From positions 372,001-436,000 of the forward strand of contig NC_063076.1 in assembly GCF_022605165.1 (NCBI RefSeq): a DNA stretch of 64,000 nucleotides, in the 5' to 3' direction. Origin of the DNA: Purpureocillium takamizusanense. Its lineage: Eukaryota; Ascomycota; Sordariomycetes; Hypocreales; Ophiocordycipitaceae. A model generated the notes under the pieces. That model was not told where the DNA came from. It worked only from the letters and a program-made list of their open reading frames with translations, and made no database searches. This document shows, piece by piece, positions 11,666 to 63,496 of this stretch. Numbering within the stretch: the first letter of the stretch is position 1; each line of letters starts with the position of its first letter. The translations under genes were made by a program, and so were the position numbers.

Positions 11666-12144
11666 TCATTCCCCATCCTTTGCGTCGGGGCTGCGGCTGC
11701 GGCTCCGTCCCCGGCGATTCCTGCCTCCACGTCCCTTGCCCGGGGGCGGTCTCACAAACGCAAAGTCGACCTGCACCGTCTGGTCCAGCAATTTCGTGTC
11801 GTGCGCGCCGTCGATGGCCGCCCGCGCCTCTTCGAGGGTCGAGTACTCGATGAGAGCGTAGCCCTGGATCGTCAGCTGGGCCCGACTCGTAGGAGCGCGA
11901 CAGCGAGGTATACCTTGACGTAGCCGCTTCGGCGGTCGAGGTTCAAGTGAAGGTTCTTGATCTCGCCGTACTCGCCAAACTTGTCCTGGATGGCCTCCTC
12001 GTCGGCCTCTTCGTGCACGTTGGTGACGACGATGATCCAGCCCTCAATGGACCGCACGGCCGTAGCCTTGGCGTGCGTCTGCATCTCCGACTCGTTGCGC
12101 GGGGGCGACCCGGCCGGGTCGATGTCCATGTCGACGTCCGCCAT
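11666..12144 (-). CDS. Y14: RNA-binding protein Y14 (RBM8A), exon-junction complex core
   Basis: Two exons, complement(join(11666..11863, 11914..12144)), 142 aa, with a 50-nt GTATAC...CAG intron of phase 0. The open frame extends upstream to a TTG, but ATG at 12144 gives MADVDMD. An acidic N-terminus is followed by one RRM: RNP2-like [24 protein letters not shown], and RNP1 spanning the splice as GYVK plus GYALIEY, ending VDFAFV. The C-terminus is Arg/Ser/Gly-rich. This is the Y14 pattern. Y14 binds Mago and eIF4A3 in the exon-junction complex, which fits an intron-rich genome. Confidence 0.93.
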
Positions 12145-12686
12145 GTTGAGTTGCTGGGTGAGCTGCGTGCAGGGGACAAGCAAAGTGAACGAGCAGCTCT
12201 GAACGAAGCTTTACGTGGGGTGGTATTTCGGTCACGTGATCTGGCAGCAAATGCGCAGCTGGCATGCGGCGCTGGGAACGCTTCCGCCGCGACGCAAGTG
12301 AGACAAGCTCTACGGGGCGAGTATGCAGAATCACGACGCAATCAACGGGCACATGGAGATATTGGACACATGTCTGTTGTCGTCATTGTCGCCATGGACT
12401 GCGATCGCAAGTGTCGAGTGCCCTCATTTCAACATCGGGCCAAACGTTCCAGAGTCGTCTTGCGTCCGCGGTCGCCGTGCCTCATCGTGTCGTTGACAGC
12501 CCAGCGCCCGACACTTGCCCCCTCATCGATCCGCGTCACTGGTCTCATCATCACTGTCATCGGTGCTGTTGCGAGAACTTTCTGTATTACGAAAGAACCG
12601 GACGCCGTGTCGCGCTGCTCTGTGCTAGCTGCAACTGCCAATCCGCCCAAACATCATGCATCCATCGTCCTCATCCCGCCATCCGT
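12145..12686. other. Promoter region of the Y14 gene
   Basis: This stretch lies between the Y14 start and the eS30 stop, both on the minus strand. No coding signal was seen; it is presumed to hold the Y14 promoter and the eS30 3' UTR. Confidence 0.45.
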
Positions 12687-18156: not shown

Positions 18157-20617
18157 ATGACCATGCCCGAGGCCAAGGCACGCCCCGCCCGTGCCAACAG
18201 CTTCCACCGCATGCTGGAACTCGAGAAGCAGTACATGGTGAGTGAGTTGAGCGCGTTCCTGACCGGGCCCCTTCGTATTGACAAATGTTCGTGCCTAGCT
18301 TGAGCGACTTCAGACGAGCAAGCCTCCGCTCGACCCGCAGTCCCCGGCCAGCCATGTGTCCCCGGTCCGCTCCAGCATCCAAGCTCGCCGCGCCGAGGTG
18401 CGCCCGCCGCCGACGTCTGAGCCTCGACGGGGACCTCGCCCCTTGGTTATCAACACGGCGGCCCCCAAGAAAACCGTGCCTGCACCCCGCGAGCCTGTTG
18501 TCGACGACGCCCCTGCAGCCGTCGCCTCCCCCGTCGACAAGCCCGGCCCAAAGGTTGTCGCTTTTGCGTTCCCCCCCAAGGAGATGGCCAAGGACACGAG
18601 CAAGGACATGGACCGTCGGTCCATCTGCGTCTCCCCCAGCTGGGAGTCGCAGTCCCGCCGCCGGGAGGAAAAGAAGATGATGGAAAAGAAGAAGCGCGAG
18701 GAAAAGGACCGCGAGAAGGAGGAAGCCAAGACGGCCCGCACCCGGAGAGGACGGCTCAGCAAGCTGCCGCCGCTGGGCCACCGCGAGCCCAAGCCACCGG
18801 CCCCGAGTCAGACCGCACCCAGGGAGCCGCTGTCGGTGCCCTCGTCCAAGAGCACGCCGACGCTCCCGTCCCTGATACCCGTGTCGAAACCCCAGGAGCC
18901 GGATCGCGGACGCAAGGAACATCGCAACTCCTTTTTCGGCAAGGATGAACAACAACAGCCCAGGAAGACACGCAGCCGCTCGAGCTCGTTTGCCTCGCTC
19001 TTCCGTTCCCCGTTTGAGCGGCGCCGCTCCTCGGTTGACCACTCCTCGGAACCCGAGTTCATTGGCGGCATCAAGCTCGAGCTCGAGCGCCACCTCGACG
19101 GCGAGCGGGCGGCCATGGCGCAGGCGGGGGCCGACGAGGGCGAAATCCATCCAGCCCTGCGTGATAACAAGCCCGCCCTCAAGTCGCCGCCGCCTGAGGG
19201 CAAGGACCCGAACCGACGACACTACCCGCCCATCACGCGCCACGGCAAGGCGCAAAACGCCCGGGCCCTCGTCTCGCCGACCGCCCCGGCCGTGCCCGAC
19301 GTGCCCAAGGCCGACAAGTGGAGGGTCCGCATGGGACTCAAGCCCAAGGCCGAAGAGCAACCGGCCCCGGCCGCCTCTCAGGAGAGCAAAGACGCGAAAC
19401 CTGCCGCCCCGGTGGTCTCGCAGGCCACCGCCAACCCGGCCGCGGTGACGGCGCCTGCCGCCGGCCGAACCGAGGAACAAGACATCAGTAACAATGAGTC
19501 CATCCCCAGCGTCGAGTCGCACGGGTACCGGACGGCACCGTCGTCCCCGTCGCCCCCTCACCGAAGCCCGAAACGGTCGCAGCAGAGCTTCTCCGACGGA
19601 GAGGGGAAGCCGCCCAAGACGCCCGTCGCCGAGGTCAAGGCCGAGACCCTCTCCACGCTGTCGGTGACGCCCAAGGCCAGCGAGTTGTCGCGGCCCGCGC
19701 CGCCCGGTACGCCGATGCAGGGCACGGAGCCGTCGTCGGACCCGGCCGCCGACCAGCAAGCGGCGAAGCGGCCGAGCTCATCCGAAGACTCGTGCTCCGA
19801 GGAGTATCACTCGCCGTCGCCGCCGAGCACGCCGGCCACGTCTCGGCCGCAGTCGGAAAGGGGGGTGTCGGCCGACAGGAGCAAGGCGCTGACGCAACGG
19901 ACGAGCGCCGCCGTGGACGAGGACATTTACGAGATCCAGGCCGCGGCCGACAGGGTGCTCGCCGACTTCGACAAGCCGTCTCCTGAGCGCCTCTCGTTTG
20001 AGAAGCAGCGCAGCAGCTTCGAGACGATGCCCGAGCCGAGGTCACAGCCCGGGCGCCTCAAGGACAGAGCCTCGCTCCCCTCCGTAAACCGCATGTCGGT
20101 CCCTGCGCGCAAGGCCATCGCAGCGCGAGAGCACTCGCAGTCGCCCCGGCCCGCGGCGGCGTCGTACCTGCAGGAGGCGCGCAAGCTCGTGCCCATCGCC
20201 CCGCCGACGCGGGCGGGGAAGCAACGTCTGGGGCCGCCCGCGTCCTTTATCCTGCCCGGCGACCTGCCGTCGCCGTCGGTGCGCTCCGAGGCGTCGCGGT
20301 CGTGCGAGACCATGTTGACGACGACAACGCGGTCGCTCGCGCGGCACTCGACGGCGAGTCTGCTCCCGGGCATGGACCGAGAGCCAGTGGCCAAATTCTT
20401 CGTCGAGTGCTGCGGGTGCAAGTACTACCACGACATGCCGAGCAACCTCTACGAGGCCATGGCGGACCCGGGGGCGATGCTGGCGCAGCGAGACACGATG
20501 GGGTACGTGGGGTCGATTTCTGTACAGGTCAAGTGCCCGTGGTGCAGGCACGAGATGAGCACAAAGTGCTGCGCGGGGTTGGCGGCCATGGTGTACGTGA
20601 CGGAGCGGTTACACTGA
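18157..20617 (+). CDS. Disordered Pro/Ser/Lys-rich protein with conserved Cys-rich C-terminal domain
   Basis: Two exons, join(18157..18237, 18299..20617), 799 aa, with a 61-nt GTGAGT...TAG intron. Exon 1 encodes 27 residues ending LELEKQYM, continued by LERLQTSK. Most of the protein is low-complexity Pro/Ser/Lys, with a charged helix (about residues 125-160) and a short RSSSFASLFRSPFERRRSS block near residue 250. The last 70 residues change character: a VECCGC pair, YHDMPSNLYEAM, then KCPWCRHEMSTKCC. The spaced Cys pairs suggest a small zinc-binding fold. I do not recognise a characterised family. It looks like a conserved fungal protein of unknown function. Confidence 0.75.
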
Positions 20618-34924: not shown

Positions 34925-36463
34925 TCATCCCTGGAGTTGCGGCTCCATGCCGCTTCCAAAGTACCGTTGCACACTCTGCCAGTCTTTGGTCATGGGATCC
35001 ACTGGCAGCAACCAGTGGTTACGATACCTGTTGACCGGGTGACCTCTGCCATTATCCTTCCTTAGCTCTTGCGCAACCTGGCGGCCAAAGGCGGTAGTCC
35101 AAGGGAAAGTACTTGGTGGCGAATTGTCCGGAGAAGCCTCAAGATGGGCGACAAGAACTTTGTACCAAAGGCGGCTGTTGCGAGTAGCCAAGGGCGGCCT
35201 GTTGCCACGGTCGAGGACAAGTGAGCGGTACTGATACGCAAATGGAAGGTTTGGCCAGGTGGCGCATTCATCGATGTTGTGATCCGTCGAATTGCACCTC
35301 GGACAACCTTTAAGAACACCTTCTTGAGCGGGTCTGGCGCACGTGCCGAGTTTATGCGAATCGTCACCACAGTTTGCACAGCTTTCGGGTTCTGCCTGCT
35401 TAGCAGGAGCCTTCGGGATGGGGGGATCGTTTGCAAATGGTCTTTTTGGGCGCTGCTCAAAAGCGGAATTGGTCACGCTTTTCGTAGCGGCCTGAGGTTT
35501 TGCTTGCTTTGCAGGAGCCTTCGGGATGGGGGGATCGTTTGCAAATGGTCTTTTTGAGCGCCGTTTTAAAGCGGAATCAGTCACGCTTTTCGTAGCGGCC
35601 TGGGGCTCAGCCTGTTTTGCAGAAGCCTTCTGGATGGGGGGATCGTTTGCTGGTCTTTTCGGGCGCTGCTCCAAAGCGGCAATGGTCACGCTTTTCGCAG
35701 CGGCCTGGGGCCCAGCCTGCTTTGCAGGAGCCCTCCGGATGGGGGGATCGTTTGCACATAGTCGTTTCGAGCGCTGCTCCGAAGCGGAACCAGTCACGCT
35801 TTCCGCAGCGGCCCGTTTTCGGCTGAGGTTCGTCGGCAGCTGAACGTGATGAGAGTTGGCTGCCTTCATCTTGGAGCCCAACAATGCACTTTGGCTTTCT
35901 TTAGACACAGTGCTGTCCTGTGTCTCCTTGCCGATCGCAGGGCGAGTTTCACAAGTGCTAGATTCGACCACAGTAGCCGCGGCTGTGGAAGCCTGCTGTT
36001 CGCGTTCTTTTGCTGCAAACTCTTCGTAGACCTTAGAGGGGGTCGTGCTTTCTTTGAATCGGCCGCAGACGGAACGGAAAGGCCACTTGGGCTGCCGGGA
36101 AACCTCAAAATGTTGGACTACCAAATCAGCAAACTGTGATATCGGGCCGGGGTTAAGTATGGACCTACACATGAGCTTCCAAACTTCCAGATCAACAAAA
36201 TAATCGAAAATCATTGAGCAAATGTGCGATTTGTGGTTGACGTATAGTGCTCGACAGACGGCACTCTCGGTAGCTGCAAATGTTCGATCATAGTCGAGGT
36301 CTATTCCGTGGTACCGGTAGAAGCCTCTGATATGAAGGCGGCGGTTTGCTGTATCTGCAGAATTGCCCCAATCGAGGGTCATAAAGGGGTGCGAATATGG
36401 CGCATGCTCGGGACGGCTGTCTTTCCAGTCGACGGTTCCCCAGTCATCCGGTTGCTGGCTCAT
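34925..36463 (-). CDS. Repeat-containing protein with two CCHC zinc knuckles
   Basis: Single exon, 512 aa, ATG at 36463. The N-terminal 130 residues look globular (Trp- and Tyr-rich: MTLDWGNSAD, YRYHGIDLDYDRTF, CRALYVNHKSH). Residues about 216-359 contain four near-identical 35-36-residue repeats with the core KSVT...EQRPKRPFANDPPIPKAP and AKQAEPQ. They are Lys/Arg/Pro-rich, so probably disordered. Two knuckles follow, CANCGDDSHKLGTC and CPRCNSTDHNIDEC, both C-x2-C-x4-H-x4-C. A conserved-looking tail has Trp/Arg patches. Zinc knuckles suggest RNA or single-strand nucleic-acid binding. No integrase or reverse transcriptase motifs accompany them, so it is not an obvious retroelement gag. Function unknown. 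Confidence 0.78.
   Translation of the reverse strand: MSQQPDDWGTVDWKDSRPEHAPYSHPFMTLDWGNSADTANRRLHIRGFYRYHGIDLDYDRTFAATESAVCRALYVNHKSHICSMIFDYFVDLEVWKLMCRSILNPGPISQFADLVVQHFEVSRQPKWPFRSVCGRFKESTTPSKVYEEFAAKEREQQASTAAATVVESSTCETRPAIGKETQDSTVSKESQSALLGSKMKAANSHHVQLPTNLSRKRAAAESVTGSASEQRSKRLCANDPPIRRAPAKQAGPQAAAKSVTIAALEQRPKRPANDPPIQKASAKQAEPQAATKSVTDSALKRRSKRPFANDPPIPKAPAKQAKPQAATKSVTNSAFEQRPKRPFANDPPIPKAPAKQAEPESCANCGDDSHKLGTCARPAQEGVLKGCPRCNSTDHNIDECATWPNLPFAYQYRSLVLDRGNRPPLATRNSRLWYKVLVAHLEASPDNSPPSTFPWTTAFGRQVAQELRKDNGRGHPVNRYRNHWLLPVDPMTKDWQSVQRYFGSGMEPQLQG
35386..35818 (-). repeat. Four in-frame tandem repeats of about 108 bp
   Basis: Four units of 105-108 bp inside the zinc-knuckle gene encode 35-36 residues each. 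Units 3 and 4 are nearly identical at the DNA level. Unit 2 lacks one codon, while unit 1 is the most diverged, which suggests recent expansion from the downstream side. Length remains a multiple of three. Confidence 0.85.
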
Positions 36464-47554: not shown

Positions 47555-48319
47555 TCAATTCCGCGACTTGGGCGGCCAAGTCATGCCCTTTTCCGTGTAG
47601 GTACCCTCGCCCCCATACTTGCCCATGTCGATGGACCACGTCTCGAGAGTCTCCCACCCGAGATGCTGGTACAACAACTGCCCCTCCGGCGTCGCCGAGG
47701 TGTAGATGGGCAGCTGTCGCCGGGCCGCCTGCTCCATGGCCCATCGCATCAGCGCCTTGCCTATGCCACGACGCCGGTATGCCTTTTTGGTGGACACGTC
47801 GGCGAGGTCTGCGCGCTCGTCAGTGCGGCGCCCTTTCCCCTCTCTGTCTCTCTCACACACGTCTTTTCTCGTCCGTCCTGCTTCACGAGGCATTCATGCA
47901 TGCATCCATGGGTTTGGTCTTGACTCACACAGGTACGGCGCATCGCCCATGGCGCGATCCTTGGCCGCCGACATCTGGGCGAAATAGTCGCGGATGGGCG
48001 GGACGTTGTACCCCGAGGGCTTGGTGATGGGCTCGACGGGCGGGCGGTCCTCGAGGGCGGGGACGTTTGCGTCGTTGAGCTGGGCAAAGGCGACGACCTC
48101 GCCCGTGTCGGTGTCGAGCATCTTTTGCACGACGAGGGGGTACTCGGGGTTGCCGAGGTCCTCGCGCAGGCCCGCGGTGAAGTGCGCAAGGCGGGCGGAC
48201 GGGTCGATGCCGCCGTAGCAGAGACGCGTCCAGGGGTCCGGGTCGAGGAAGTCGGCGATGAGGATGGCGGCGAGGGCGGGGGCGTCGTCGACGGTGGCTT
48301 GGGACATTTGGAGGGGCAT
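47555..48319 (-). CDS. GNAT-family N-acetyltransferase
   Basis: Two exons, complement(join(47555..47808, 47929..48319)), 214 aa, with a 120-nt GTGAGT...GCGCAG intron. The acetyl-CoA motif A is RRRGIGKALMRW (consensus R/Q-x-x-G-x-G/A), preceded by the beta strand YLADVSTKKAY made across the splice. Motif B follows as LPIYTSATPEGQLLYQHLGWE. The N-terminus (ATVDDAPALAAILIADF) is the usual GNAT helix 1. The substrate is unknown. It lies 844 bases from the peptide-precursor gene, on the same strand, so a role in the peptide cluster is possible but unproven. Confidence 0.9.
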
Positions 48320-49162: not shown

Positions 49163-49791
49163 TCAGATGTAGGCCTGGTGGCGGTCGGGCTCGGCTCCAG
49201 ACCGCTTGATGTAGGCCTGGTGACGGTCTGGCTCGGCATCTCCTCGCTTGATGTATGCCTGGTGACGGTCCGGCTCGGCCTCGGACCTCTTGATATAAGC
49301 TTGATGGCGGTCCGGCTCAGCATCTCCGCGCTTGATATACGCCTGATGACGGTCCGGCTCGGCGTCACCGCGCTTGATATAGGCTTGGTGGCGGTCCGGT
49401 TCGGCATCACCACGCTTAATATACGCCTGATGGCGATCCGGCTCAGCATCGCCACGCTTGATGTAAGCTTGATGACGGTCTGGCTCGGCGCCATCTCGCT
49501 TGATATAAGCCTGATGGCGATCCGGCTCAGCCCCAGACCTCTTGATGTAAGCCTGGTGACGGTCGGGCTCAGCATCGCCGCGCTTGATGTAGGCCTGGTG
49601 TCTATCCGGCTCGGCCCCGGACCTCTTGATGTACGCCTGGTGACGGTCTGGCTCGGCGTCGCTGCGCTTGATGTACGCCTGGTGGCGGTCAGGCTCAGCC
49701 CGGCCCTTGATATAGGCTTGGTGGCGATCAGGCTCAGCACCCGAGCGCTTGATGTAGGCCTGGTGGCGGTCAGGCTCTGCGTTTGAGCGGG
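49163..49791 (-). repeat. 15-copy 42-bp in-frame repeat array
   Basis: Units are 42 bp (one is 39 bp). All 15 encode the identical decapeptide, while third codon positions vary between units (TAC/TAT, CAG/CAA, GCC/GCT, CGC/CGT/CGA). The two-residue spacer after KR varies. Synonymous drift with an invariant peptide points to selection on the peptide itself rather than a young satellite. Confidence 0.93.
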
Positions 49792-49907
49792 CTACCGTTT
49801 TGTCAGTCGCGTTTCGTCTACCGGGACAGGTCTGGGGAGGCCTCACGCTCGGCGGGGGCGGCAAGGCCCAGAGCCGGAAGGAGAGCAATCAAGACGGAGG
49901 CGCGCAT
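49163..49907 (-). CDS. Kex2-processed repeat precursor, dikaritin-like RiPP
   Basis: Two exons, complement(join(49163..49791, 49847..49907)), 229 aa. The 55-nt intron has GTGAGG, a CTGAC branch and GGTAG. Residues 1-17 form a signal peptide (SVLIALLPALGLA). The rest is 15 exact copies of AEPDRHQAYI. Each is followed by KR and a variable dipeptide (SG, GD, DG, SD, SE), except that the second copy is followed by KGR and the last by the stop codon. Such Kex2-repeat proteins with a Tyr-containing core are precursors of dikaritins (ustiloxin UstA, phomopsin PhomA). Two UstYa-family oxidase genes lie next to it. Mature peptides should end in Tyr-Ile. Fungal alpha-pheromone precursors are the alternative but have Trp/Cys-rich repeats. 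Confidence 0.88.
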
Positions 49908-50839
49908 GTTGAGTCTGGAGACTGTGCTGATGGTGGTGGATCGAGTGTTGTTGAAAGTCTATGCCTTTCGTCTGGTGAATAGCTTGTGTATCCAGACAAG
50001 AGCCATTTTATATACGGGTTGGACCTCGTCAAGGCCGGTCCTAGGTGCTCAATCCCCGACTGGAGACGCCCGGTGCCGGACGCTCTTTCGATGACATGAT
50101 GCGATTGTTTGACCGTCCCGCTTCCACGATCACTACCCAATCCTCCCATACGGCATAGAGCCGAGGCTCAAGCACGAAGCGACGCCTCCTATGTGTCATG
50201 TCGTGGCGGGTGATCAGTCGTGATATCCGTGCATGAACAAGACATGCAGCGGTCCCGTCGAGCAGCCCAAAGAGACGAGGCCACTACGCAAGGCGATCGT
50301 CCGCATTCGAGAATGATCTTCCCTCGAGACAGAAGCTGAGCAGGCTGACGGCTTGCATATGTGATGTGATGAGAGACGACGGGAGCCGGAAGCGTGTCCG
50401 AGACAGCCGGTCTGGCGTAAGGAGGCGGATGTGCTCGGACCAGACCAGCCGTCGGTGGTAGATGACTATCGTGAGGACTGCTACGGATTATGCGTGTCTG
50501 GCGTTGTCTAGTAGTTTGTTCAACTCCAGACAGCGGTGTGTTTGCCTGCAGTGAAACAAAACGACATGTGGCTACGTCCGCGGCTTTCACTTGTTCGCCG
50601 GTGTAGTGATGTGATGCCGGTGCGGCTCTGAACTATGCAGCTCAAGTTCGCAGAAGTCTCAACTAGGAAGGCGTTCCGGCAGTTTGCGTTGCAGCGATAC
50701 GACAAGACACAACACGATGCGTTCTCGCGAACGATACCGGCTAATCGGGACGGCCAACATGATAGCAATTTGAGTGTTGTAAAACCTATTCTGAGACGTC
50801 TGATGTCTATCCCGCCCTCCCCTGCCCCCCTGTCCACAT
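49908..50839. other. Promoter of the peptide-precursor gene
   Basis: No coding sequence is supported. It contains the precursor's TATA element (listed separately) and the 3' flank of the next minus-strand gene. Confidence 0.45.
50006..50014 (-). promoter_or_regulatory. TATA element of the peptide-precursor gene
   Basis: TATATAAAA on the minus strand, about 100 bases before the precursor ATG, leaves a short leader. A strong TATA box fits a highly induced small-peptide gene. Confidence 0.55.
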
Positions 50840-51875
50840 CTAGACGATATTGCCGCTGACCGAGTAGTCAAACGGATCGGCTGCACATGTTAGCACTCGA
50901 AACCAGATAGTGGAGGCCACTTACGCAGTTCTGGGTGAAAGTTGGGGTGCTTGAGCAGGGTCTCGTCGAACCCGTCAAAGTGGTGCGCCCACGCCCACTC
51001 TTCAATGGCCTCCCAGTTTGCGCATTCGTGCACGATGCGGAAGTTGGGCCACGGACGATGGAAGTTGGGGATCCAGTCAAAGGTCTGGATCACCACGTCC
51101 GCATTGCACATGATGTACTTGCGCACACTGTCCAGGCAATGGTCTACGGCTGTCAGCGAACGTGTGAATTCCCGGCGGCCGTTGGTGCTCACCGATGTGC
51201 TGCTCGAGATTCTTCTCTTGAGTCATGTTGTAGTAGTCTTTGTGAAGGTAGCGCCTGACATATCTCTGCGAAAGAGTCACTGTGTGTACGCGGAATGGGA
51301 TGGGGCCAGGAAAAGACTCACAAGACAGTGCAGCTGATGATACACGTCCAGCCCAGCCATGTAGCCGGACCCGTCAAGCAACGGCACCGAGGTGCGGTTG
51401 ATCTTGTCCAAAGTCTCCTTGCTGACTCGGACGGCCGTAGGCCCTAGGAGCTTGTTCCATGCCTCATCGAGCTCAGGTCGTGGCGGCCCTTTGAACACAT
51501 TTGAATCCTCAATCTCGCTTTCAAACAGCTGCGGCTCCCACTTGATGGCCTCCCATGCCGGGCCTGGGCTCATCAGCATTGGTCACGCCAGTAAAGAGTA
51601 CGCATGCACGACGTACTGTAGGCGAGGAGCCCGCTCTTGTGGCTGCCCGAGGGCTTCCAGCCGCGGTAGTCCCAAAAGGCGAAAAAGAGCGTCGTGTAAA
51701 AGGCCGCGAGGAAGAGGTGCAGGATCACTGGAGTTGTGATGGATGCGCAGCGCCATCGTCTCTTGAGCGGAAACTGGACGAGGGACGATTTCTCGACCGA
51801 CAATCTGTCTGGCGAGCTGTTGCCATGGCCGAGCAGAGTGTCGGCGTCGGAAGAGGAGTCGATTGACCGCGGCAT
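50840..51875 (-). CDS. UstYa-family (DUF3328) oxidase, copy 1
   Basis: Five exons: complement(join(50840..50880, 50925..51143, 51193..51265, 51322..51563, 51617..51875)), 277 aa, all junctions in frame. A short cytosolic Ser/Asp-rich N-terminus is followed by one membrane helix (about residues 47-69) and a lumenal domain. Both family motifs are intact: YHQLHCL (HxxHC at 162-166) and EQHIDHC (190-194, made across a splice). HECANWEAIEEWA follows near the end. UstYa/UstYb proteins catalyse oxidative macrocyclisation of Tyr-containing cores in ustiloxin biosynthesis. The HxxHC histidines and cysteines are the presumed active site. Adjacent to the repeat precursor, this is a candidate crosslinking enzyme. 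Confidence 0.92.
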
Positions 51876-52432
51876 GATGATGGATCGTGGACAGAGTGTG
51901 GTGCTCAAGCAAGCTTGGACTCGACTTGGGGCAGGGATGAAATGCTCAAGATGGCCCGGGGACCGCCAGATACCCATCCAGATCAACCAACACGCTGCTC
52001 TCGAGACTCTCATCTCGCGGGGCCAGTTCACATAGGCACCGGGACATCGACGGCGCTTGACATCACGGCACGTTGGTCCCGTCGTTGCATGGTTCCCATC
52101 ATGTGGCGTTTGGCGATGCAGATGCGAGTCTCACCTCCACCAACCCGCCCACACACATTCAACCGGGGTCGCGGCTCTGGGCAAGGCGGGGCCGGTGGTG
52201 CTGCAGCTGAGCTGATGGCGAGACCGTCTGCGTCTCGATGCGGCATCTTCAGTAATGCGATTATGGAGGGATTGTATCTGAGAGGGAGTTCCGGGATCAC
52301 AGCGGCGATGATGCCATGGCCTGGCCCATGTCCAGGAAATAAGCTCCCATGTCCGCCAACAGAGCACTTCTTCTGCGTTTCTCACTGTGAGTGACTGTGA
52401 GTTTGCAACTACGTACTTGTGAAATTTCGTTC
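51876..52432. other. Shared promoter of two divergent UstYa-like genes
   Basis: 557 bases between the start codons of the two DUF3328 genes, with no supported ORF. A common bidirectional promoter would co-express them. No clear TATA or palindromic CGG site stood out. Confidence 0.5.
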
Positions 52433-53437
52433 ATGATGGGCTACGCGAGTCTGAGAAACATCTTTGGCAACGGCCTCAAGGCTGGCCAACCGCCCACGAG
52501 GTACTCGAGGGTCAAGTCCGAGGACCCCCTTGACCCGGAGATGCCACATGGCCTTTGCCGCTGCTCTGCTCGTCGCCACCGCGAGGCGTGGAAGTCGCCT
52601 CTGCGCGTGTTCGCGTATGCGCTGCTCACGTCCGTCATCACTTGCCTCATCATGTGGAGCTTTCCACCCAACTGCAAGCGCGGCGCGGGCGGCGAGGGCC
52701 CGTTGCTGAAGACGCCCGTACCCGAATGTAAGTCTTCGTAACGGGATTTCCACCGGGGGGAGTGCAGGACCCGTGCTGAACAGTGCAAGTCCCCAAGGAG
52801 ATCCGCATGTTTGAGCTCGACATGACGTACGCGGACCCGCCCACGCCGGAGAACGACAAGGCGTGGAACGACCTCTTGCCTGTAAGTCTAGCTTCCCAGA
52901 CTGTCCGTCCGTGGCCATGGCCGGCGGAACTGACGGAAGTGAAATCGACAAGTTTGGTCGCGGCTACGTGTTTGTGGACAACGCCGCCGAGTATGGTCTC
53001 GAGCCCGGCATCGAGACAGAGTACGGCGAGATCTACTCGGTCGCGCTGTATCACCAGATGCACTGCCTGGGCCTCGTGCGCCGCAACTTCTGGCGCCTTG
53101 TCGACGGGATCCTCAACAACAGGCCCGGGGTTGCCGACGAGGCGCGTGCCGAGATCCAGAACTCGCACACGGGGCATTGCTTCGACTACTTCAGGCAGAG
53201 CTTTGAGTGTTCTGCCGACATGACCCTCGAGTGGCCGCGCACCGAAACGGATGGCCGTAGGTACCAGGTGGACGGCGGACACATTCCCCACGTGTGTGCC
53301 AGCAGGGTGAGTTGCGAACGGAATCCTGAAGTGACCCAACAGCGCGTGGTTCCTCTAACAGCCAGCAGAAAGCGCTCCAGGATTACATGGACTATGCGCA
53401 CTTTAACAACTCCCACAACAATGACATTGCCGCATAG
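52433..53437 (+). CDS. UstYa-family (DUF3328) oxidase, copy 2
   Basis: Four exons: join(52433..52727, 52784..52881, 52953..53306, 53366..53437), 272 aa. ATG at 52433 or the next codon at 52436. One membrane helix at about residues 60-83 (VFAYALLTSVITCLIMW). Then KEIRMFELDMTYADPP, W-x-DLLP joined by the splice to FGRGYVFVD, and the two motifs LYHQMHC (HxxHC at 165-169) and NSHTGHC (203-207). It differs markedly from copy 1, consistent with the paired UstYa/UstYb arrangement of dikaritin clusters, where two different family members act together. It should face the secretory lumen, where the precursor repeats would be released. Confidence 0.92.
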
Positions 53438-53707
53438 AGTGCATGACAGACTGCACGGGACTTGGGTAGTGACTGACGGCGCTTGGAGGAGGGTGGCTCT
53501 GTGCAGAGGGGTTGTAGCCAGACACGATCGAGTAGTACGGAATCAGACTGCAGTTAAGACACAATTGAATTCACACTGCAACCAGATTATGAAATGTGCA
53601 AGGTGGCGAATGCGGATGGTGCGACTAATTGATGCCCTTGGGATGATTAGACAATCAAGTTGGTTGTTAGACCCAGTTGAGCCGTGCTGCATGCTATGCC
53701 ACCACAT

Positions 53708-54361
53708 TCAGCCATCAACGTTGTCTATGCCCAGAGCCACCCTGCACGCCGGGTAGCCGACAGAAACCTCGTGCAACGCGCCGTCATCGACCCTCCGGTC
53801 CTTGAACAGCCCCTCACACTCCATCATGCCGTCCCAGTCGGTCGCGTAGCCATCCACCGAGGTCGAGTTGAGCACCGCCCGATGAAGCTTCCTCCACGCA
53901 AACACGCAGCGGTGGCGGAGGTACCTCTCGGTGACGAAGAGCGTCGAGTGCTGGCCCTGCATGACGTTTGCCAGCGATATGGAATTGGACGTGGGATCCG
54001 GACGCTTCCAGTAGTGCCACTGCTGCACGCTCAGAAACTCCTTGGTGAGCTCAAAGTCGTGGCAGGCATCGGGCAGCCATGCCATGGCAATGGGGTCAAA
54101 CATGCACCCGCGGTTGCGGGCCGTTAGGGGACTGTCTCCGCATGGACGGACCTGAGCGTTTTCCACGGGCGACCAGACCGAGGCGGCGACGGAGGCGCGA
54201 TACAGGTCGTAGCCCGCAAAGAGAACGCCAAGGCAGAGGAGCGAGGCCACGACCTGTAACAGGCATCTGAACAGTTTCGACCCGTCGAGATGCTTAGGGT
54301 AGCCGTCTTCTCCCTCTTTGCCGTCGCCAGGCGGGGCCAGGAAGGCCACCGTCTCCTCCAT
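53708..54361 (-). CDS. Single-pass membrane protein with CG...GCxFD motif, copy 1
   Basis: 217 aa from ATG at 54361. An upstream exon starting near 54510 (MDHKFMSS) could be spliced on, which would add about 29 residues. A membrane helix (about 30-52: CLLQVVASLLCLGVLFAGY) is followed by a lumenal domain with PCGDSPLTARNRGCMFD, AMAWLPDAC and a Trp/Tyr segment QQWHYW, then RYLRHRCVFAWRKLHRAVLN. The two genes at 54808 and 56673 share CG-x-S...GC-x-FD and C-x2-SWRK-like elements. Those two keep HxxHC at the equivalent place; here it reads LRHRC. It may be a distant or degenerate relative of DUF3328. Function unknown, probably cluster-linked. Confidence 0.75.
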   Translation of the reverse strand: MEETVAFLAPPGDGKEGEDGYPKHLDGSKLFRCLLQVVASLLCLGVLFAGYDLYRASVAASVWSPVENAQVRPCGDSPLTARNRGCMFDPIAMAWLPDACHDFELTKEFLSVQQWHYWKRPDPTSNSISLANVMQGQHSTLFVTERYLRHRCVFAWRKLHRAVLNSTSVDGYATDWDGMMECEGLFKDRRVDDGALHEVSVGYPACRVALGIDNVDG

Positions 54362-54807
54362 CGCCTCCTCTACGGCGGCGTCGCCGACATCCAAGCTCGA
54401 CCTCGGGCTTGGCGGCTCCAAGGGGGCCTTGTGGTTCGCTGACAGCCCAGGAGGTCAGCTTCGACTTCGCACTCGGGTGTGAGCTACTTGCCGTAACGAG
54501 AAGACATGAACTTGTGATCCATTGCAACAGACAGCTAGAGTGACCGTGATGCCAACAGCTGCGAATGACTCCTTGAGCAAGTCGTGCGGTATGAGAGTGC
54601 CCCGGAGGCACCTGGTATCAGGCCAAAGCCTCTTGGATGCAGTAAGCGGGGTGCTATGCATCCTTGTCTTGGACGCACCACCGTACGGACTCAGGGCTGA
54701 CCCGCCGTGGGCATCAAACGTCTTCAGGTTTGTGTCCGCAAGTTGCCGTCACTCCGTCGTTTCTTCTGGTTGCCTTACAAGCTCACTACAAAATCGCCAT
54801 TGACGAA
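54362..54807. other. Divergent promoter between two CG...GCxFD genes
   Basis: The short gap between start codons probably contains a first exon of the minus-strand gene and the shared promoter. No other gene is supported. Confidence 0.4.
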
Positions 54808-55589
54808 ATGGAAAAGACTATCGGTACGGCCACGAGTTCATGTACAGATCTTTGCTGACCGGCTCAGCAGCTTCCTTGAGCCGCTCCTGGCGGCGGATGA
54901 CCAGCGAGGCGGCCTCACGGCCAGTGCCCTCCAGGCAAACTCCAAGATCGACTACGGCCAGGGAGGCGGGCATGTTCAGCTTCACCAAGGAGCTCCGCCG
55001 CAACCGTGGCACGAGTGCCGCGATTGTGATCCTATCCATTCTCATCTTGGGCCTCGAGATCGTTGCGCAGACTGGTTTCCCTCACTCCAGCCGCGACAAC
55101 AGCACTTCAACGCCAGGCAGGCCAAGTCAGCAGGCGGTGGTTTCCGGCGAGCTGACGAAAACCCACTGCGGCTCGTCTGCCGAAGAGGCACGCCGACAGG
55201 GCTGTCGGTTTGACGAGCTCAGTCTTGCGTGGCAGGCGCCGGCCTGCTACGACAAAGAGACCATCGACGAGTTCCTGGCGGCCGGCGACTGGGAATTCTT
55301 TGCCGACGAGCACAGCACGGAAACCGTCCCGCACGACGAGCTGGCTCTGGCTCAGGAGCCGGTGCACGTCACCCTCCAGTTCCACATAGCGCACTGCCTC
55401 TTTTCGCGGCGACAGATGGTGAGACTGCTCCTGCGCGGGGCGGCCATGGACACCCACTTGGGCGCGTACAGGCACACCGACTATTGCGGCAAGACGATGC
55501 TCAACGAGGAGGGGAGAGGCAACGACAGGCACACCAAGGCGCCGGCCATCTACCCAGTGTGCAAGCCGCTTCAGGCTTGGGGGAGCTGA
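54808..55589 (+). CDS. Single-pass membrane protein with CG...GCxFD and HxxHC, copy 2
   Basis: Preferred model is join(54808..54823, 54868..55589): a 5-codon first exon (MEKTI) spliced with a GTACGG donor and a CTGAC branch, about 245 aa. The unspliced alternative starts at ATG 54840. A membrane helix SAAIVILSILILGLEIVA is followed by THCGSSAEEARRQGCRFD, LAWQAPACYDKE, a WEFFAD segment, then LQFHIAHC (HxxHC) and RRQMVRLLLRG. The last part has DYCGKTM. This shares its layout with copies 1 and 3. HxxHC after a membrane helix recalls UstYa proteins, but only one such motif is present. Role in the peptide pathway is inferred from position. Confidence 0.78.
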
Positions 55590-56672
55590 GTGCCTATGCG
55601 AGGCGGCGCAGCTTCGCACGCAAACGGTGGATTGGATGGCCTGGATGATCGTGACAGACGGTGCAGACAGTGACAGACGACAGATGAGAGACATTATTCT
55701 TCAATCCGAATTCTGCTTTATAATCCTTGGGCATGTGTCTCATCGGTCAGCCCAGCGATCTGCTGTGACAACGATCTGCTGTGACGGGCTGCAGCGATCC
55801 CATGGTGGCGGGCTGAACCGTTCACTAGCGTTGCACGGCAGTGGCAGGCATGCGTCCTGACGACGAGGTGCCGGCATGCCGGCGACGCTCACTCACGGCA
55901 ATCAGAGACTGACAACGTGCCCAAAGCGGTCCGTAGCGTTCCAAAGTTGCGGTACGGGCCGTGTCTCGGATGGTGCCGCCACCGCTTGTCGCGGAACCTC
56001 GAGCGACTAGCAACTTGCTCGACTGCTGGGGAAGTGTGCCAAACGGCACCGCCGGCGGCGGTTCGTCCTAGCCGAAGAACGACGTCGCTGTGGCGCGCCG
56101 ATCGTGGCCACCGGATTCGCAGCGGATGGACCCGTTGAGGTTTCGTCGTGTCCGACGCGGGCCGCCAGACTAGTTGCGGCGCCGAGACAGAAAGTGCACT
56201 GCTGCGGATGGACACTGCTGTAGAAACATGCAGTTCTCGGCTGTCAGCTCTAGACGGCGCTACGCTTTGCCGGCCTTCCGTCGAGATACTCTGCCGCTGA
56301 GTGACGACAGCAAACGAGACACCAATGGCGTCATGAGAATGTGCCGGCGGTGCTTAAGCCAACTGAGGCCGCGGGACGATGGCGACAGATCGTCAAGACA
56401 GCGCAAGCACAGCGGCCGATCAACGGAGTGGTCTGGTTATCGCCGAGGACTTGTAAGTGCCGCCTCGACGAGCAGCAAGGGTCGACTGGCTGCTCCCCGA
56501 CATGTTTCTGGCCCCTTGCTGGTTGACCAGCCCGTTCGTCTTCTCTGTGCCAAATTAGTTAAAGGACGCATTGTGCTGTGTGGACGCTGCTCCTGCACAC
56601 TCGTCCATCTCTTGGTAGGCGTGCCCCTTCCATCGTCTTCGACAGCAGCTGACCCGTGCAGACATCGTCGAC
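55590..56672. other. Intergenic within the peptide cluster
   Basis: About 1.1 kb without a supported gene on either strand. Short CGATCTGCTGTGAC repeats occur near 55757-55785. A decayed gene cannot be excluded. Confidence 0.4.
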
Positions 56673-57485
56673 ATGGATAAAGTCAACAAGGAACAGCCAC
56701 ATCTCGCGGACAAGGAGCAGTATGACAGTCTCTTGACCGGAACGGACTCGGAGTCGGTCGACCTGGATGCCATCGGGGCCTGGTCACGGCGCCGGCGATG
56801 GGGGATTCGCGCCCCAATTTTCATCGTTCCCGCCGTCCTTCTTTTGGTCGCTGCGGTGACGCTCGTGGCCATCGAGTCGTCCAATGTGTCGCGGATGCAC
56901 ACTCTCTTCGCGCAGTTGCACCACAAGCTCGACGCGCTCGACCGGCATGTGCAGGCACCAGTGCCGGTGCCGGTGCCGGCGTCGGCGCCGGACGGCCCCT
57001 GGACGGCAGCCGCGCCGACTGGCGAGGAGCTGGGCCACTGCGGCTCGTCCATCGCTGAGGCACGCTCCCTCGGGTGCATCTTCGACCCCATGTCGTGGGC
57101 GTGGCAGCGGCCCGAGTGCTACCACCCGGAGCTCGTCGCCGACTTCCTCGCGCGCATGGACTGGCGCTTCTACCTGACCAAGGAGGCGCTGCCGTCCGAC
57201 GAGGTGCCTCGTGAGGCCTGGGTCCGAGGCGACTACCTGTCGCTCTACGGACCGGGCGCGTGGCACAGCTTCCACTGCACCTACTCGTGGCGCAAGTTCC
57301 ACGAGGCCTTTCAGGACAAGAGGCCCATGGACAACGACATCCTGCAAATGGAGCACACCATGCACTGCGACACCATATTCCTGCACGACCTGGATCCGAA
57401 CCTGTCCGCGGCGTGCGACACGGCGCCAGGGGGCTGCAACACGACCGAGGTCAATGCCGGCTTCAACTCGTGCGGCTGGTACTGA
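56673..57485 (+). CDS. Single-pass membrane protein with CG...GCxFD and HxxHC, copy 3
   Basis: Single exon, 270 aa, ATG at 56673. An acidic cytosolic tail is followed by a membrane helix at about 50-72 (IFIVPAVLLLVAAVTLVAI). A short helix and a Pro/Val/Ala linker (PVPVPVPASAP) come next. Then GHCGSSIAEARSLGCIFD (Cys at about 124 and 136), SWAWQRPEC, DWRFYL, and WHSFHCTYSWRKFHEAF with HxxHC at about 198-202. The C-terminus has several Cys (CDT, CDTAPGGCNT, SCGWY). It is the best-conserved of the three related genes in this cluster. It may be a lumenal oxidoreductase related to DUF3328, but that is inference. Confidence 0.85.
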   Translation: MDKVNKEQPHLADKEQYDSLLTGTDSESVDLDAIGAWSRRRRWGIRAPIFIVPAVLLLVAAVTLVAIESSNVSRMHTLFAQLHHKLDALDRHVQAPVPVPVPASAPDGPWTAAAPTGEELGHCGSSIAEARSLGCIFDPMSWAWQRPECYHPELVADFLARMDWRFYLTKEALPSDEVPREAWVRGDYLSLYGPGAWHSFHCTYSWRKFHEAFQDKRPMDNDILQMEHTMHCDTIFLHDLDPNLSAACDTAPGGCNTTEVNAGFNSCGWY

Positions 57486-58666
57486 TGATCCGTGGGTGTG
57501 CTGGGCGGCGGGGGAGTTGATATGGATGGCGCTGGCCCGGGCTGCGGTCGTCGGCAGCGCGAAGAGGCGAAGTGGGTGAAGTGGTGAGGCGAGGGCTCCG
57601 CCAGACTGAAGGGCGCCGGAGTAGTATGTAGTTTCGTCCAACAAGGCTTTCGAGTAGACCGCTCGCTCATCAACGACGTCCATGTGTGATTTTGTCATGC
57701 AGCGGCAGCTGATGGCGTCAATTGCCCCTGAAAGGAACCAACAGCCGGATCCTCTGATCCACCAACATGGCCCTGGTCACGGCCTTGGGATGTCCGTCAG
57801 CCAGCTAGCGTGTTTTGAGCCGTTGATGCAGAACCAACGTGGTGAATAGGCCCGACTTACGGGGTCCGCTGTTGACGAACGGCGGAGAAGACTCCAACAA
57901 GCGTTCTTTGAATACTCACGGATGCTCAGTACGAGAGCCACGCGGCAAAGGAACTTGAATGTATGGTGCTGCTCTCTGCTCCGTGTTTCCATATGGCGCG
58001 GTATGGCTGAGTTTTCCTCGACGTTGCTGTGGTTGGCTGTCTCAGGGGGAGACGAATACCTGCCAATGGGGCGATGCAACAGACTGCGTGGCCAAGAGAC
58101 AGAGTCAGTCGCCTAGCACTCAGTCTTCCACAAGAAGCTTGGGGCCGGGACAGGCCGTCCATGTGAGACACAGCTCGGTAGCAGTCGCCCCTGGCCGGGG
58201 GGAGGCGGATGGACGAGCTCATGGTCGAGGCTCGCCGCTCACCTGCTCAACGTACTTACTTGATCCCAAGTATATTGCACGAATGCACCATCTCCGGAGC
58301 AGTCCGCAAACGCGTCGCAAGTGCACGCGCGGCAGCCCTCGCGGAGCACGCCCGAGGCGCAATGACCACGTCGGAGCGGCCTCTGACGCATTCGGCAAGC
58401 CAGCCGTTGGGTGAACGTGTGTTGTGTTTGGATCGGCACCATTTGCGGGGACGGCAGGTGGAAATGAGTGTCTTGTCCCTGGTTTGCAGTTGGGGGCGGC
58501 GCTCAGCTCGACTCATATCAGGGCTTACATAACATGACAACAGCGCCCGCCAGCCCGCCAGCCCGCCAGCCCGCCAGCCAGCCATGGAAGCTAATAAACT
58601 CGCCGCTCCACCACTGGCCAAGCCATCACGGCATTAAAAACGCCAGCCTCTTGTAAGTCGCCGGCC
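57486..58666. other. Intergenic, promoter of the ABC transporter
   Basis: About 1.2 kb with no supported gene. Near its end (58545-58583) are four to five AGCCCGCC-type units. A GTAAGT at 58653 followed by CCGCAG at 58719 could form an intron around the transporter's start codon, but using it gives no in-frame upstream ATG. Confidence 0.45.
58545..58583 (+). repeat. Short AGCCCGCC tandem repeat
   Basis: About four copies of an 8-base unit with partial units at the end, in the leader region of the ABC transporter. Confidence 0.75.
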
Positions 58667-61600
58667 ATGTCGTGGCGAGCAGCGGTGACCACCGCGACCC
58701 ATGGCTGCTCTCCGCAGGCCGACGATGTCTTCGGGCCCGTCGTCGGTCGAGAATGCCGCGGCGGCTTCGACTTGACCCTGTTGTTCGAGCAGGCCGTGCT
58801 GTCGATAATTCCGGCGGCCATCATCATCGTCGCCTTTCCGCTGCGCTTCGCCTACCTCGCCACCGCTCGACCGAAATCGATTCTTCATCCCGCGCGCTTC
58901 TTCAAGCTGGTACGGCTCCGTTGGCCTCTCTTTGACCACCTTGGCCACCTGGTCGTGAAGACATTTGAATGCTGATTCGGTCTGCAGTTCGCAGCCTCCG
59001 TCTTTCTCCTCCTTCAGGTCGCGCTTCTTGTCCTGTGGTCCCGCGATGAGGTGAACCGCACGAGGGCCTCGCTGCCCCTGGCCGTCCTCAATGTCATCGT
59101 GGGCCTTCAGCTGGTGGTGCTGTCGTGGATGGAGGACGGCCGGTCGATCCGCCCCTCGACCATGCTGGGCACCTACCTCGCCATCACCGTCATCCTCGAC
59201 ATTGCGCAGGCAAGGACACTGTGGCTTCGACACCTAAGCACGCCCATTGCCGCCGTCTTCTCCGCCACGGTGGCCGTCAAGGCCGTCATGTTGCTGCTCG
59301 AGAGCCGCAAAAAGACCACATACCTCAAGCAAGCCCACGCGGACCTCCCGCCCGAGGCCACCAGCGGCATCATCAACCGCAGCTTCCTCTGGTGGCTCAA
59401 CGACCTGTTCCGCCGAGGCCTCTCCACCCATCTCACCCTCGACGACCTGTATCCCTTGGACGACGAGCTTGCCTCGGGCCCCTTGAGCACCAAAATTCAA
59501 CAAGCCTGGTCGCGGCGACGCAAGCCCGAGCGCCGCTTCGAGTTTCCCCTCGCGGCCTGGCGGGCTCTGCGCTGGCACATCCTGTCCGCCATCGTCCCCC
59601 GGCTGTTTCTGATTGCGTTTACGTTTGCACAGCCCTTTTTGATTTCTCGCGTCCTGGACCTGCTGTCCGAGCCCGACAGCCAGCCAGCCCGCAACGTGGG
59701 CTACTCGCTGATCCTTGCGGCGGCCGTCATCTACATGGGACTGACGCTGTCGACCCTCTACTACAACCACAGCGTCTACCGGTTCATGACAATGTTCCGT
59801 GGCGCCAGCGTCGCGCTCATCTTCAACCACATGCTCACGCTTCCCCTCGGCGAATACGATGATTCGGCCGTCGTGACTCTGATGAGCACCGACGTGGACC
59901 GCATCGTGCTCTGCCTCATCAGCCTCAATGAAATCTGGGCGCGCGTCATCGAGGTTGCCGTGGGAGTCGTGCTGCTGGCGCGGCAGCTTGGCTGGGTCTG
60001 CCTTGTGCCGCTCTTTGTCGTCGTCGGTGAGTTCCATGTCCTCTGAGGGCCACGAAACCGAGCGCTGATGATGCAGTGTCCTTTTTTGGCAGCGCGGAAA
60101 TCTCGAGGACCATCGGCGCCCGCCAAAAGGTTTGGATAGACGCCGTGCAGCAACGAATCACCATCACGGCCTCGATGCTTGCCGAGATGAGGAGCGTCAA
60201 GATGATGGGGCTGAGCCCGGTGTTGTCTGCCATTGTCCAGGATCAGCGAGTCCAGGAAACGCGGCGCATGGCGGCGTCCCGATGGAGCATCGTCTGGCAA
60301 AACGTCGTGCAGAACCTGCCCTGGGCGCTGGCCCCCTCGCTCACCTTCATCATCTACGTCGCGCAGGCCACGGCACGGGGCAGCTCTTCCATCGACGTCA
60401 CCCAGGCCTTTACCGCCTTGTCCATCATCACGCTGCTCACGGATCCTGCCGCCAAGCTTCTGAGTGCCATACCTTCCACTGCTGCGAGCTTGGGCTGCTT
60501 CGATCGGATCCAGGAATTCCTCGTAGCACGTCCCAGGACCGACCCCCGCTTCGTTGTGTCGCCGTCGAGAACGACACAAGGGCAAGAGGCCGCCACGATC
60601 TCGATGCAAAACATGTCGCTCCGCCCCGTCGCCACCGCCGAGCCCGTCCTGACGGACGTCAACTTCGCCATCGCCCGCGGGTCACTGGCCATGGTCGTTG
60701 GCCCCGTCGGGTCCGGCAAGACGACCCTGATCAAGGGCATTTTAGGCGAGGTCAAGGACCAGAACGGCGGCTCCGTCAGGATCGCCAGCAAGCAGGTCGC
60801 GTTGTGCGTTCAAGTACCTTGGCTGCCCAACACGACGATCCGGGAGGCCATCTCAGGCTACGTGGAGGAGGGGCAAAGCGTCGATCAGGCGTGGTACCGG
60901 AAATGCCTGCATGCATGCGCGCTCGACTACGATCTCGATCGCCTGGCAGACGGCGAAGACACCCTTGTAGGCAGTGCGAGCACGGTCCTCAGCGGTGGCC
61001 AGAGAGCGCGGGTTGCTCTGGCTCGCGCGGTCTACGCCCGGACGGACATTGTGCTCCTCGACGACGTGCTGGGCGCTTTGGACACCAATACGCAGGCCAC
61101 AATCATGTCTCGCCTGTTTGGCAGCGAAGGCTTGCTGAAGAAGCGCAACGTGACTGTGGTGCTCGCGACGCACGCCAGTGAGTGGCGTGGCCCTGCATCT
61201 GTGGCTTGCCGTGCTAACTCGCAGCAGCCGAATTTCTCAAATATGCCGACAAGGTCCTCATCGTTTCTGATGGACGGGTCAAGGATGGCGGCAAGGGCGA
61301 CGGTTCTATCCCCAAGGAGCTCATCAATGCTCTCAAGGCCACGTCCAGCCCCTCGGCGGATCAAGTCGAGCCCAAGGAACCCAACGCCAAGGACAGGGCG
61401 GAGGAGATTGCCGAGGCCAATGAAGTGAGTGACATGAACAGGTCGGAAGGCGACCTGGACGTGTATCGGTACTACTTCAAGTCTGTCGGCTGGCCCAAGA
61501 CTGCCCTCTTCGTCGGGTTTGTCATTGTGGACGTTTTCTGCAGCAGCTTCAGCAGTATGTGTGTTCCAGCCATGACGGATGGATGAGGAAGCTAACAACA

Positions 61601-63496
61601 GCAGCGATCTGGTTGAAGTGGTGGGCCGAGGTTGATGGGGGCCAGATCGCGCTCTACATGAGCGTCTACGTCGCCCTGGCGTTCCTGACGTCCGTGGGAA
61701 CCGGTGGATACGTCTGGTAAGAGTCTCTGACAGTGCAAGAGAAGATGAAGCTCACCCAGGCAGGTCCATACTGATCCTCATCTCTCCGTACACCGCGCGT
61801 AAATTGCACGCTGTGCTGCTACGGGTTGTCATGAGGTGCGTGCGAGTCCGTTCGAGCCGATGCTTTTCTAACACTGTCCAGGGCGCCTCAATCGTTCTTC
61901 TCGGCCACGGACAGCGGGTCGATTCTCAACCGGTTCAGCCAGGACATGACCATCATCGAGGGACAGCTGCCCATCGGCATCCTCATCGCCGTCTCAAGTG
62001 TGTATGCTCCCCGCGAGCCATGGACGCAGCTAACGCCAGTAGATTTGTTCTCGTCGCTCGCGGCCGCGGCCCTGGTCACCACGGGCTCCGTTTACATGGT
62101 CGTCAGTGTCCCGTTCCTTGTCTTTACCATCTGGGCGCTGCAGCACGTGTACCTCCACACCTCGAGGCAGCTGCGGCTGCTGGACCTCGAAAGCAAGAGC
62201 CCGCTATATTCCCACTTCCTGGAAACCGTAGGCGGCCTCGCCACTATCCGCGCGTTTGGATGGCAATCGCGTTTCAAGGCCAAGAATGAGAGGCTGCTGG
62301 ACTACTCGCAGCGGCCGCACTACCTCTTGTACTGCAGCCAGCGGTGGCTCAACCTCGTCTTGGACCTCATCGTCGGCGCGCAGGCCGTCCTCGTCGTCGG
62401 CCTCGCTGTTGGGCTTCGACGCTCCACCAGCCCCGGTCTTCTCGGTGTCTCCCTGAACAGCACGTTGTGTAAGTGCAGTCATTGCTCTCAACGATTGCCG
62501 TGCCATGACTCACAGTTCGATAGCCTTTAGCGGCGCTCTCTCGTCCCTCGTGTCAGGCTGGACGATGCTGGAAACCTCGCTCGGCTCGATTGCGAGGTTG
62601 ATGAGCTTCGAGGCTACGGTCAAGCCAGAGGACAAGCCCGGCGAGACGTACCAGCCGCCACCCAGCTGGCCAGAGCGCGGTGCCGTTGAATTTCGCCAAG
62701 TCACCGCTGTCCACAGGCAAGTATCCCGGTCCAAGGAGTGGGCATTGCTAACGAGCGGCAGTCCCGGAGCCGTGGGCATTTGCGAGGTTAGTCTGGAGAT
62801 CAAGCCGGGCCAAAAGGTCGGCGTGTGCGGCCGCACAGGAAGGTTAGTTTCAAGCAGACCAACGACTGCCTGGCGATGGCTGACAAGCATTGCAGCGGCA
62901 AGAGCTCGCTCGTAGCTACTCTGGTGAGGCTATTGGAGATGGACTCCGGTTCCATATTCATTGACGGAGTGGACGTTGCCACGGTGCCACGCGAAACGAT
63001 CCGCGAGCGCCTCGTCAGTCTCCCGCAAGATCCACTGGTCCTCAATGGCAGCGTGCGCCTCAACGTGGACCCAGAAGAGCGAAGCACCGATGAAGCCGTG
63101 GCGACGGCGCTGGACCGCGTGGGCCTTGGGGATTTTGCGCAGTCGCGCGGCATCATGGCCGACATCACGGCGACGTCGCTGTCGCGAGGCGAGCAGCAGT
63201 TGCTCGCTCTGGCGCGGGCGGTCGTCAAGAAGCAAGCCTGCGGCAGCACCATTCTGCTGCTGGATGAGGCGACAAGCAACGTCGACGCCGAGACCGATGC
63301 CGTGCTGCAGCGCATCCTGCGTGAAGACTTTTCGGGGTGCACGCGGGTGGCCGTAGCGCACCGCATCGAGACGATTATGGATTCGGACGTGATTGTGGTC
63401 ATGGACTCGGGACGCATCGTAGAGGTTGGTGCGCCTTCGGATCTGTTGCATAAGGAAGACGGGTGGTTCGCCCAACTGGCCGGGTCCAAGGAGTAG
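58667..63496 (+). CDS. ABCC (MRP)-type ABC exporter
   Basis: Eleven exons: join(58667..58909, 58988..60026, 60077..61177, 61228..61554, 61605..61716, 61764..61835, 61882..61997, 62043..62468, 62524..62716, 62762..62842, 62896..63496), 1436 aa, a normal length for fungal ABCC. It has an N-terminal TMD0, then TMD1-NBD1-TMD2-NBD2. NBD1: Walker A GPVGSGKTTL, signature LSGGQRARVALARA, Walker B IVLLDDVLGALD (Asp instead of the catalytic Glu, usual for ABCC NBD1). NBD2: GRTGSGKSSL made across the last splice, LSRGEQQLLALARA, ILLLDEATSNVD. Intron 9 has a GC-AG donor (AG|GCAAGT). It exports or sequesters amphipathic compounds; here export of the cluster peptide is likely. Confidence 0.94.

Follow-up and report, generated by a model that had tools for sequence, protein, structure and literature searches.

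In fungi, dikaritin-like RiPPs are recognized by DUF3328 (UstYa) proteins with two HxxHC motifs, which are described as the class-defining enzymes, and an older five-gene definition that included a tyrosinase and a methyltransferase is described as since relaxed (PMC12048977). Ustiloxins and phomopsins are reported to carry an N-terminal tyrosine linked to an internal isoleucine, and epichloecyclins an internal tyrosine (PMC9233826). For one DUF3328 enzyme, CctR, it has been shown that these proteins are O2-using binuclear copper enzymes and that the HxxHC motif forms the copper site in a homodimer, and the catalytic domain is proposed to face the lumen of an organelle (PMC12435403). CctR and other DUF3328 copper enzymes have a single N-terminal membrane helix, a lumenal domain and an HxxHC(x)nHxxHC arrangement on two adjacent helices (PMC12435403), as do the enzymes with both motifs described below.

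The window analyzed here is a stretch of 64,000 nucleotides on a contig of 2,226,199 bases in the genome of Purpureocillium takamizusanense (35.6 Mb, 14 contigs). In this insect-associated fungus, as the original prediction proposed, gene content (a Kex2-repeat precursor with paired DUF3328/UstYa proteins that carry both HxxHC motifs) identifies a dikaritin-like UstYa/Kex2-repeat RiPP cluster. What is new is another member of this group that comes with a companion HxxHC family, including a fixed His-less branch. As in ustiloxin and phomopsin clusters, there is a signal-peptide precursor with Kex2-cut repeats, at least two DUF3328 proteins with two HxxHC motifs, and a tyrosine in the core. However, the window has three extra proteins of what we call the E-type family, its core ends in HQAYI with a penultimate tyrosine, and its exporter is of the ABC type, whereas that of ustiloxin and phomopsin clusters is of the MFS type. 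It also differs in that no methyltransferase, tyrosinase or S41 peptidase was found among the seven cluster genes by the ORF list and Pfam, as the original prediction had noted for these enzymes (the methyltransferase being of the UstM type), which places these seven genes outside the older definition based on tyrosinase and methyltransferase. The epichloecyclin (GigA) cluster is likewise described as having a Kex2-repeat precursor with an internal tyrosine and a peptide of about nine residues (PMC9233826). The core in the window is different, and the Epichloe relative C2857_004664, itself of the UstYa type, carries EPDRHQSYL repeats.

The precursor gene and its repeated core

The precursor gene (49163..49907, minus strand) is intact. 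A 55-nucleotide GT-AG intron joins an upstream exon that carries the start codon (49907-49847) to the repeat ORF (49791-49163), which has no start codon of its own. Spliced translation and repeat analysis yield a protein of 229 amino acids with a hydrophobic N-terminus, judged by eye to be a signal peptide, followed by 15 identical AEPDRHQAYI cores. These features agree with the secreted Kex2-repeat precursor with a tyrosine-containing core that had been predicted. The sites between cores carry KR in 13 of 14 cases and KG(R) in the other, and a variable dipeptide adjoins each core (GD six times, SG four times and five others once each), with GD, SG, SD, DG and SE among the spacers that follow KR.

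The DNA encoding the cores has diverged, as evident by a mean pairwise difference of 4.9 of 30 nucleotides and the lack of a single identical pair among the 15 copies, and yet there are no residue changes, although only 19 of the 90 possible single changes per core are silent. Because the residues stay constant in diverged DNA while neighboring dipeptides vary freely, the core is marked by selection beyond chance, and the sequence pattern is that of cores under purifying selection between free-running spacers. The last core runs directly into the stop codon without a KR, both here and in Epichloe festucae, which suggests that the mature peptide ends in Tyr-Ile in the window and in Tyr-Leu in Epichloe. 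With tyrosine as its penultimate residue and an HQAYI ending, the core is indeed unlike those of ustiloxins and phomopsins with their N-terminal tyrosine. A literature search brought up neither the core string nor the form that it takes in Epichloe, and an earlier description is possible, since the original reports on ustiloxin, asperipin, victorin and GigA lay outside that search.

The single database match to the precursor is E. festucae C2857_004664 (P0001), a relative of the UstYa-A protein of the window (70% identical over 99%) with EPDRHQSYL-type repeats at the end of its gene model. The pairing of precursor and enzyme therefore predates the genus and reaches beyond Purpureocillium. In the window, UstYa-A adjoins the precursor just upstream on the same strand, and so the P0001 model may be an annotation fusion of two neighboring genes, or else a genuine enzyme-substrate fusion. 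Most of its linkers read KERS and one reads KKRS, so that dibasic cleavage is seemingly reduced in Epichloe and release by Kex2 is questionable there. A core-like string occurs in only 1 of 37 UstYa-A relatives, P0001 itself, in a search of the relatives' own gene models, to which separate precursor genes are invisible.

UstYa enzymes and a companion HxxHC family

Two divergent DUF3328/UstYa genes lie beside the precursor. UstYa-A (50840..51875, minus strand; exons 51875-51617, 51563-51322, 51265-51193, 51143-50925 and 50880-50840) carries HQLHC and HIDHC, and UstYa-B (52433..53437, plus strand; exons 52433-52727, 52784-52881, 52953-53306 and 53369-53437) carries HQMHC and HTGHC, as read in the translations. 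The original prediction had called both genes and both motifs and had named a PF11807 search as a check; this search places UstYa-A at 190 bits and UstYa-B at 97.1 bits, well above the Pfam cut-off of 25 (an alternative UstYa-B gene model with five extra residues scores 90.3 bits). UstYa-A is 91% identical to P. lilacinum VFPBJ_08881. At least two HxxHC motifs are present in 27 of its 37 relatives, and the pair is 27-32 residues apart in 26 of these 27 and 57 apart in P0010.

The three further membrane proteins, predicted to be related, are indeed akin to each other, with D 33% and C 24% identical to E by alignment. Gene E (56673..57485, plus strand) encodes HSFHC and HTMHC after one membrane helix, 30 residues apart and thus within the UstYa-like range of 27-32. 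Gene D (54840..55589, plus strand) keeps an intact first motif (HIAHC), and its second is altered to HTDYC. Gene C (53708..54522, minus strand; exons 54522-54492 and 54438-53708 with a GC-AG intron), whose protein is identical to public protein JDV02_008952, belongs to a His-less branch of the family (LRHRC ... GMMEC). The original prediction expected a minimally tailored product. This is doubtful, because C, D and E are of the HxxHC type or derived from it, and the cluster holds more than two potential copper-oxidase subunits.

None of C, D and E matches any Pfam family above cut-off, PF11807 included. A profile built from the three, with 8000 candidates scored, retrieved 37 relatives: 19 E-type proteins plus P0069, 13 C-type proteins and four truncated or mis-modeled sequences (P0070, P0071, P0073 and P0074). 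The 19 E-type proteins and P0069 are the 20 of 37 with two HxxHC motifs, which are always exactly 30 residues apart, and PF11807 touches only 2 of 20 family relatives, below cut-off (best E 0.06). The family has its own conserved CG...GC.FD block, and in this block, its Pfam standing and its His-less C branch it differs from CctR and other DUF3328 enzymes. The block and the lack of a Pfam match would also be compatible with a separate origin of C, D and E, as a family that binds metal or delivers copper or electrons and whose HxxHC pairs are convergent. The CctR authors postulate that an unknown protein supplies Cu(I) or electrons (PMC12435403).

Comparison of E-type and UstYa lumenal profiles is weak by its statistics (score 26.9, E 0.0019, probability 14%), which leaves room for such convergence. 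However, both motifs align in register, none of 300 column shuffles reaches the observed score (best 23.6), and a reversed profile scores 9.8; adding C-type sequences to the E-type profile lowers the score to 24.5. The E-type topology is that of UstYa, and its motif spacing of 30 falls within 27-32. Moreover, AlphaFold2 models of an E-type protein (P0038, mean pLDDT 77) and of P. lilacinum UstYa-A (P0002, mean pLDDT 68) have a common order: a membrane helix, later a five-residue strand that leads straight into the motif-1 helix, with the motif at the fourth residue of that helix, and then a second helix that starts just before motif 2. Profiles and models together support common descent of the E-type family and UstYa, short of proof, and we regard an unrelated origin for C, D and E as unlikely, though it carries real weight. 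No family of this kind was noticed in literature listings; the original papers named above were outside this search as well, so an earlier description is possible.

The His-less proteins form a branch of their own. A tree was built from 37 sequences, comprising six from this genome and 31 of the 37 relatives (P0039, the window's own C protein, was counted once, and P0070-P0074 were excluded). In this tree, 12 C-type proteins make up one clade with a support of 0.999, whereas the clade of 20 E-type proteins is weakly supported (0.47). At the motif columns, all 20 E-type proteins read HHC/HHC. The C-type columns read LRC/GEC in 9 of 12 proteins, gene C included, and VRC/GEC, LRC/GKC and HRC/EMC in one each. 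All four motif histidines, absent from gene C, are lost in 11 of the 12 and three are lost in the twelfth, but both cysteines are kept in every case. C-type proteins are found in two named Purpureocillium species, several Ophiocordyceps and Cordyceps sp. RAO-2017. The gene C branch is likely to be a dedicated, fixed pseudo-oxidase, and its long retention without copper ligands points to a partner with a structural or regulatory role. Only tentatively, at odds a little short of even, do we propose the fuller reading that fungal RiPP clusters use, beside UstYa, another family of HxxHC copper oxidases that is invisible to Pfam, with one clade fixed as a His-less, non-catalytic heterodimer partner.

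Related loci in this genome and in other fungi

With E, D and the family copies on contigs C14 and C5 as queries, the genome was found to hold E-type sequences at five loci: the window (three genes), C14:40.2 kb, C5:580.4 kb, C9:12.1 kb and C6:1622 kb. Four of these have a PF11807 match no more than 10 kb away, and the 10-kb zones around such matches (17 loci) cover 1.0% of the genome. The chance that at least three of four random loci would fall in these zones, counting the four outside the window, is 4e-6; this estimate would lose force if the loci cluster towards contig ends. At 13 of the 17 UstYa loci there is no E-type match.

Extending the search for repeat precursors, as had been advised, revealed three further Kex2-repeat genes near UstYa genes in the same genome, two of which have an E-type gene within a few kb. 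In the second cluster (C14:39271-45034), a precursor with four ALYPVTWPSK/GK repeats lies between two UstYa genes and the E-type gene carries HISHC and HIKHC. In the third (C5:575845-581226), a precursor with six SEAQSPD(I/V)LYNNQAGWGK(K)R repeats is likewise placed between two UstYa genes, and the E-type gene carries HVAHC and HTSHC. Near the end of contig C9 (C9:2635-21456) there are several UstYa matches, a NKVDSYALRSGWYYTKR-type repeat precursor (19503-19850) and, approximately 7 kb from it, an E-type copy (12110-12451) with QVAHC and HIMHC that is interrupted by stops or introns. The remaining gene (C6:1621598-1622548; HTRHC and HVTHC) lies on a contig without any PF11807 match, and the 10 kb read around it hold no repeat gene; a role outside RiPP clusters is possible for it.

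Outside this genome, six contigs, matched up by their identical lengths, carry matches to both the UstYa-A and the C/D/E families. By locus tags, the order is A-x-C in Cordyceps sp. RAO-2017 and in Ophiocordyceps australis, and a further O. australis record has C-x-E, in agreement with the A-B-C-D-E order of the window.

Cluster boundaries and a proposed pathway

The seventh gene, at about 58668-63496 on the plus strand, has several exons; its start and full exon model are our reading. Pfam searches of four ORF pieces gave two matches to ABC_tran, both above cut-off, and two to ABC_membrane, of which one falls below it. An ABCC exporter had been predicted: the Pfam matches bear out an ABC transporter, and the ABCC subclass is our reading of the sequence. 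On the left, the cluster is bounded by a GNAT domain (47564-47893, by Pfam) and a TAF1-like gene (by ORF reading), and on the right, from about 63.65 kb, by an arginase-family gene (Pfam). The GNAT neighbor may nevertheless belong to the cluster, as in one clan of lichen RiPPs the gene for UstY is described as being flanked by GNAT genes (PMC12048977). To the right of the window (L009 2656-9919), there is an alpha-L-fucosidase (Pfam), followed by an FAD-linked oxidoreductase and a SAM methyltransferase by ORF reading. Elsewhere in the window, positions 35387-35813 hold a tandem array of approximately four units of 36 residues, read on the minus strand, that directly precedes a stretch resembling a CCHC zinc knuckle.

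We propose, with a probability of roughly 0.7, that the core is released by Kex2, oxidized by UstYa-type copper enzymes and probably cross-linked through its tyrosine. The precursor would enter the secretory pathway, where Kex2 would cleave after KR and a carboxypeptidase would trim KR, leaving peptides of ~9-12 residues with the ending ...HQAYI. Copper dimers of the UstYa type that face the lumen (A, B and probably E) would then oxidize the core, most likely joining the tyrosine side chain to another residue, and C, which has no copper histidines, and D, one of whose motifs is altered, may serve in heterodimers as partner or scaffold subunits. Because tyrosine is penultimate, a ring would run back from it, unlike in ustiloxins and phomopsins and nearer to epichloecyclins. 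The ABC protein might export or sequester the product, or serve in self-protection. An ABC pump works from the cytosol, and it is a poor match for a lumenal peptide unless the product returns to the cytosol or the pump has a protective role.

This proposal is favored by the 15 selected cores, the two adjoining PF11807 proteins with double HxxHC motifs, the Epichloe repeats on a UstYa-A relative, the neighboring of A, C and E in other fungi, the three further repeat genes near UstYa genes and the copper chemistry of CctR. We counted against it the penultimate tyrosine, the occurrence of the repeat in a single UstYa-A relative, the KERS linkers of Epichloe and the cytosolic action of ABC pumps.

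It is improbable, but not negligibly so, that UstYa-type enzymes modify the core without macrocyclization, for instance by hydroxylation, halogenation or desaturation. DUF3328 proteins have also been tied to hydroxylation, halogenation and isomerization (PMC12435403). However, the characterized repeat-precursor cases are cross-linked, and a survey reports tyrosine in 65.6% of KEP repeats near DUF3328 genes versus 38.2% otherwise (PMC7329392), a residue that the window core has. A linear secreted signaling peptide, hormone- or pheromone-like, with the UstYa genes as mere neighbors, would share the Kex2-repeat architecture described as common to alpha-pheromones (PMC6339444), but is highly improbable, given that the STE13 signature (XA/XP after KR) used in that source to recognize alpha-pheromones is absent from all repeats, that the repeats are paired with a UstYa-A gene in Epichloe too, and that nearly all pheromone-annotated KEPs are reported to be without DUF3328 neighbors (PMC7329392).

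Fungal RiPP mining relies largely on one UstYa Pfam model. A survey of 7878 repeat precursors is described as scoring neighboring genes by Pfam matches (PMC7329392), and a family without a Pfam model would go uncounted there. Should the E-type proteins be copper oxidases, the annotation of such clusters misses some of their oxidizing subunits, and C, as a conserved pseudo-oxidase, would offer a direct test of why UstYa-type proteins so often come paired.
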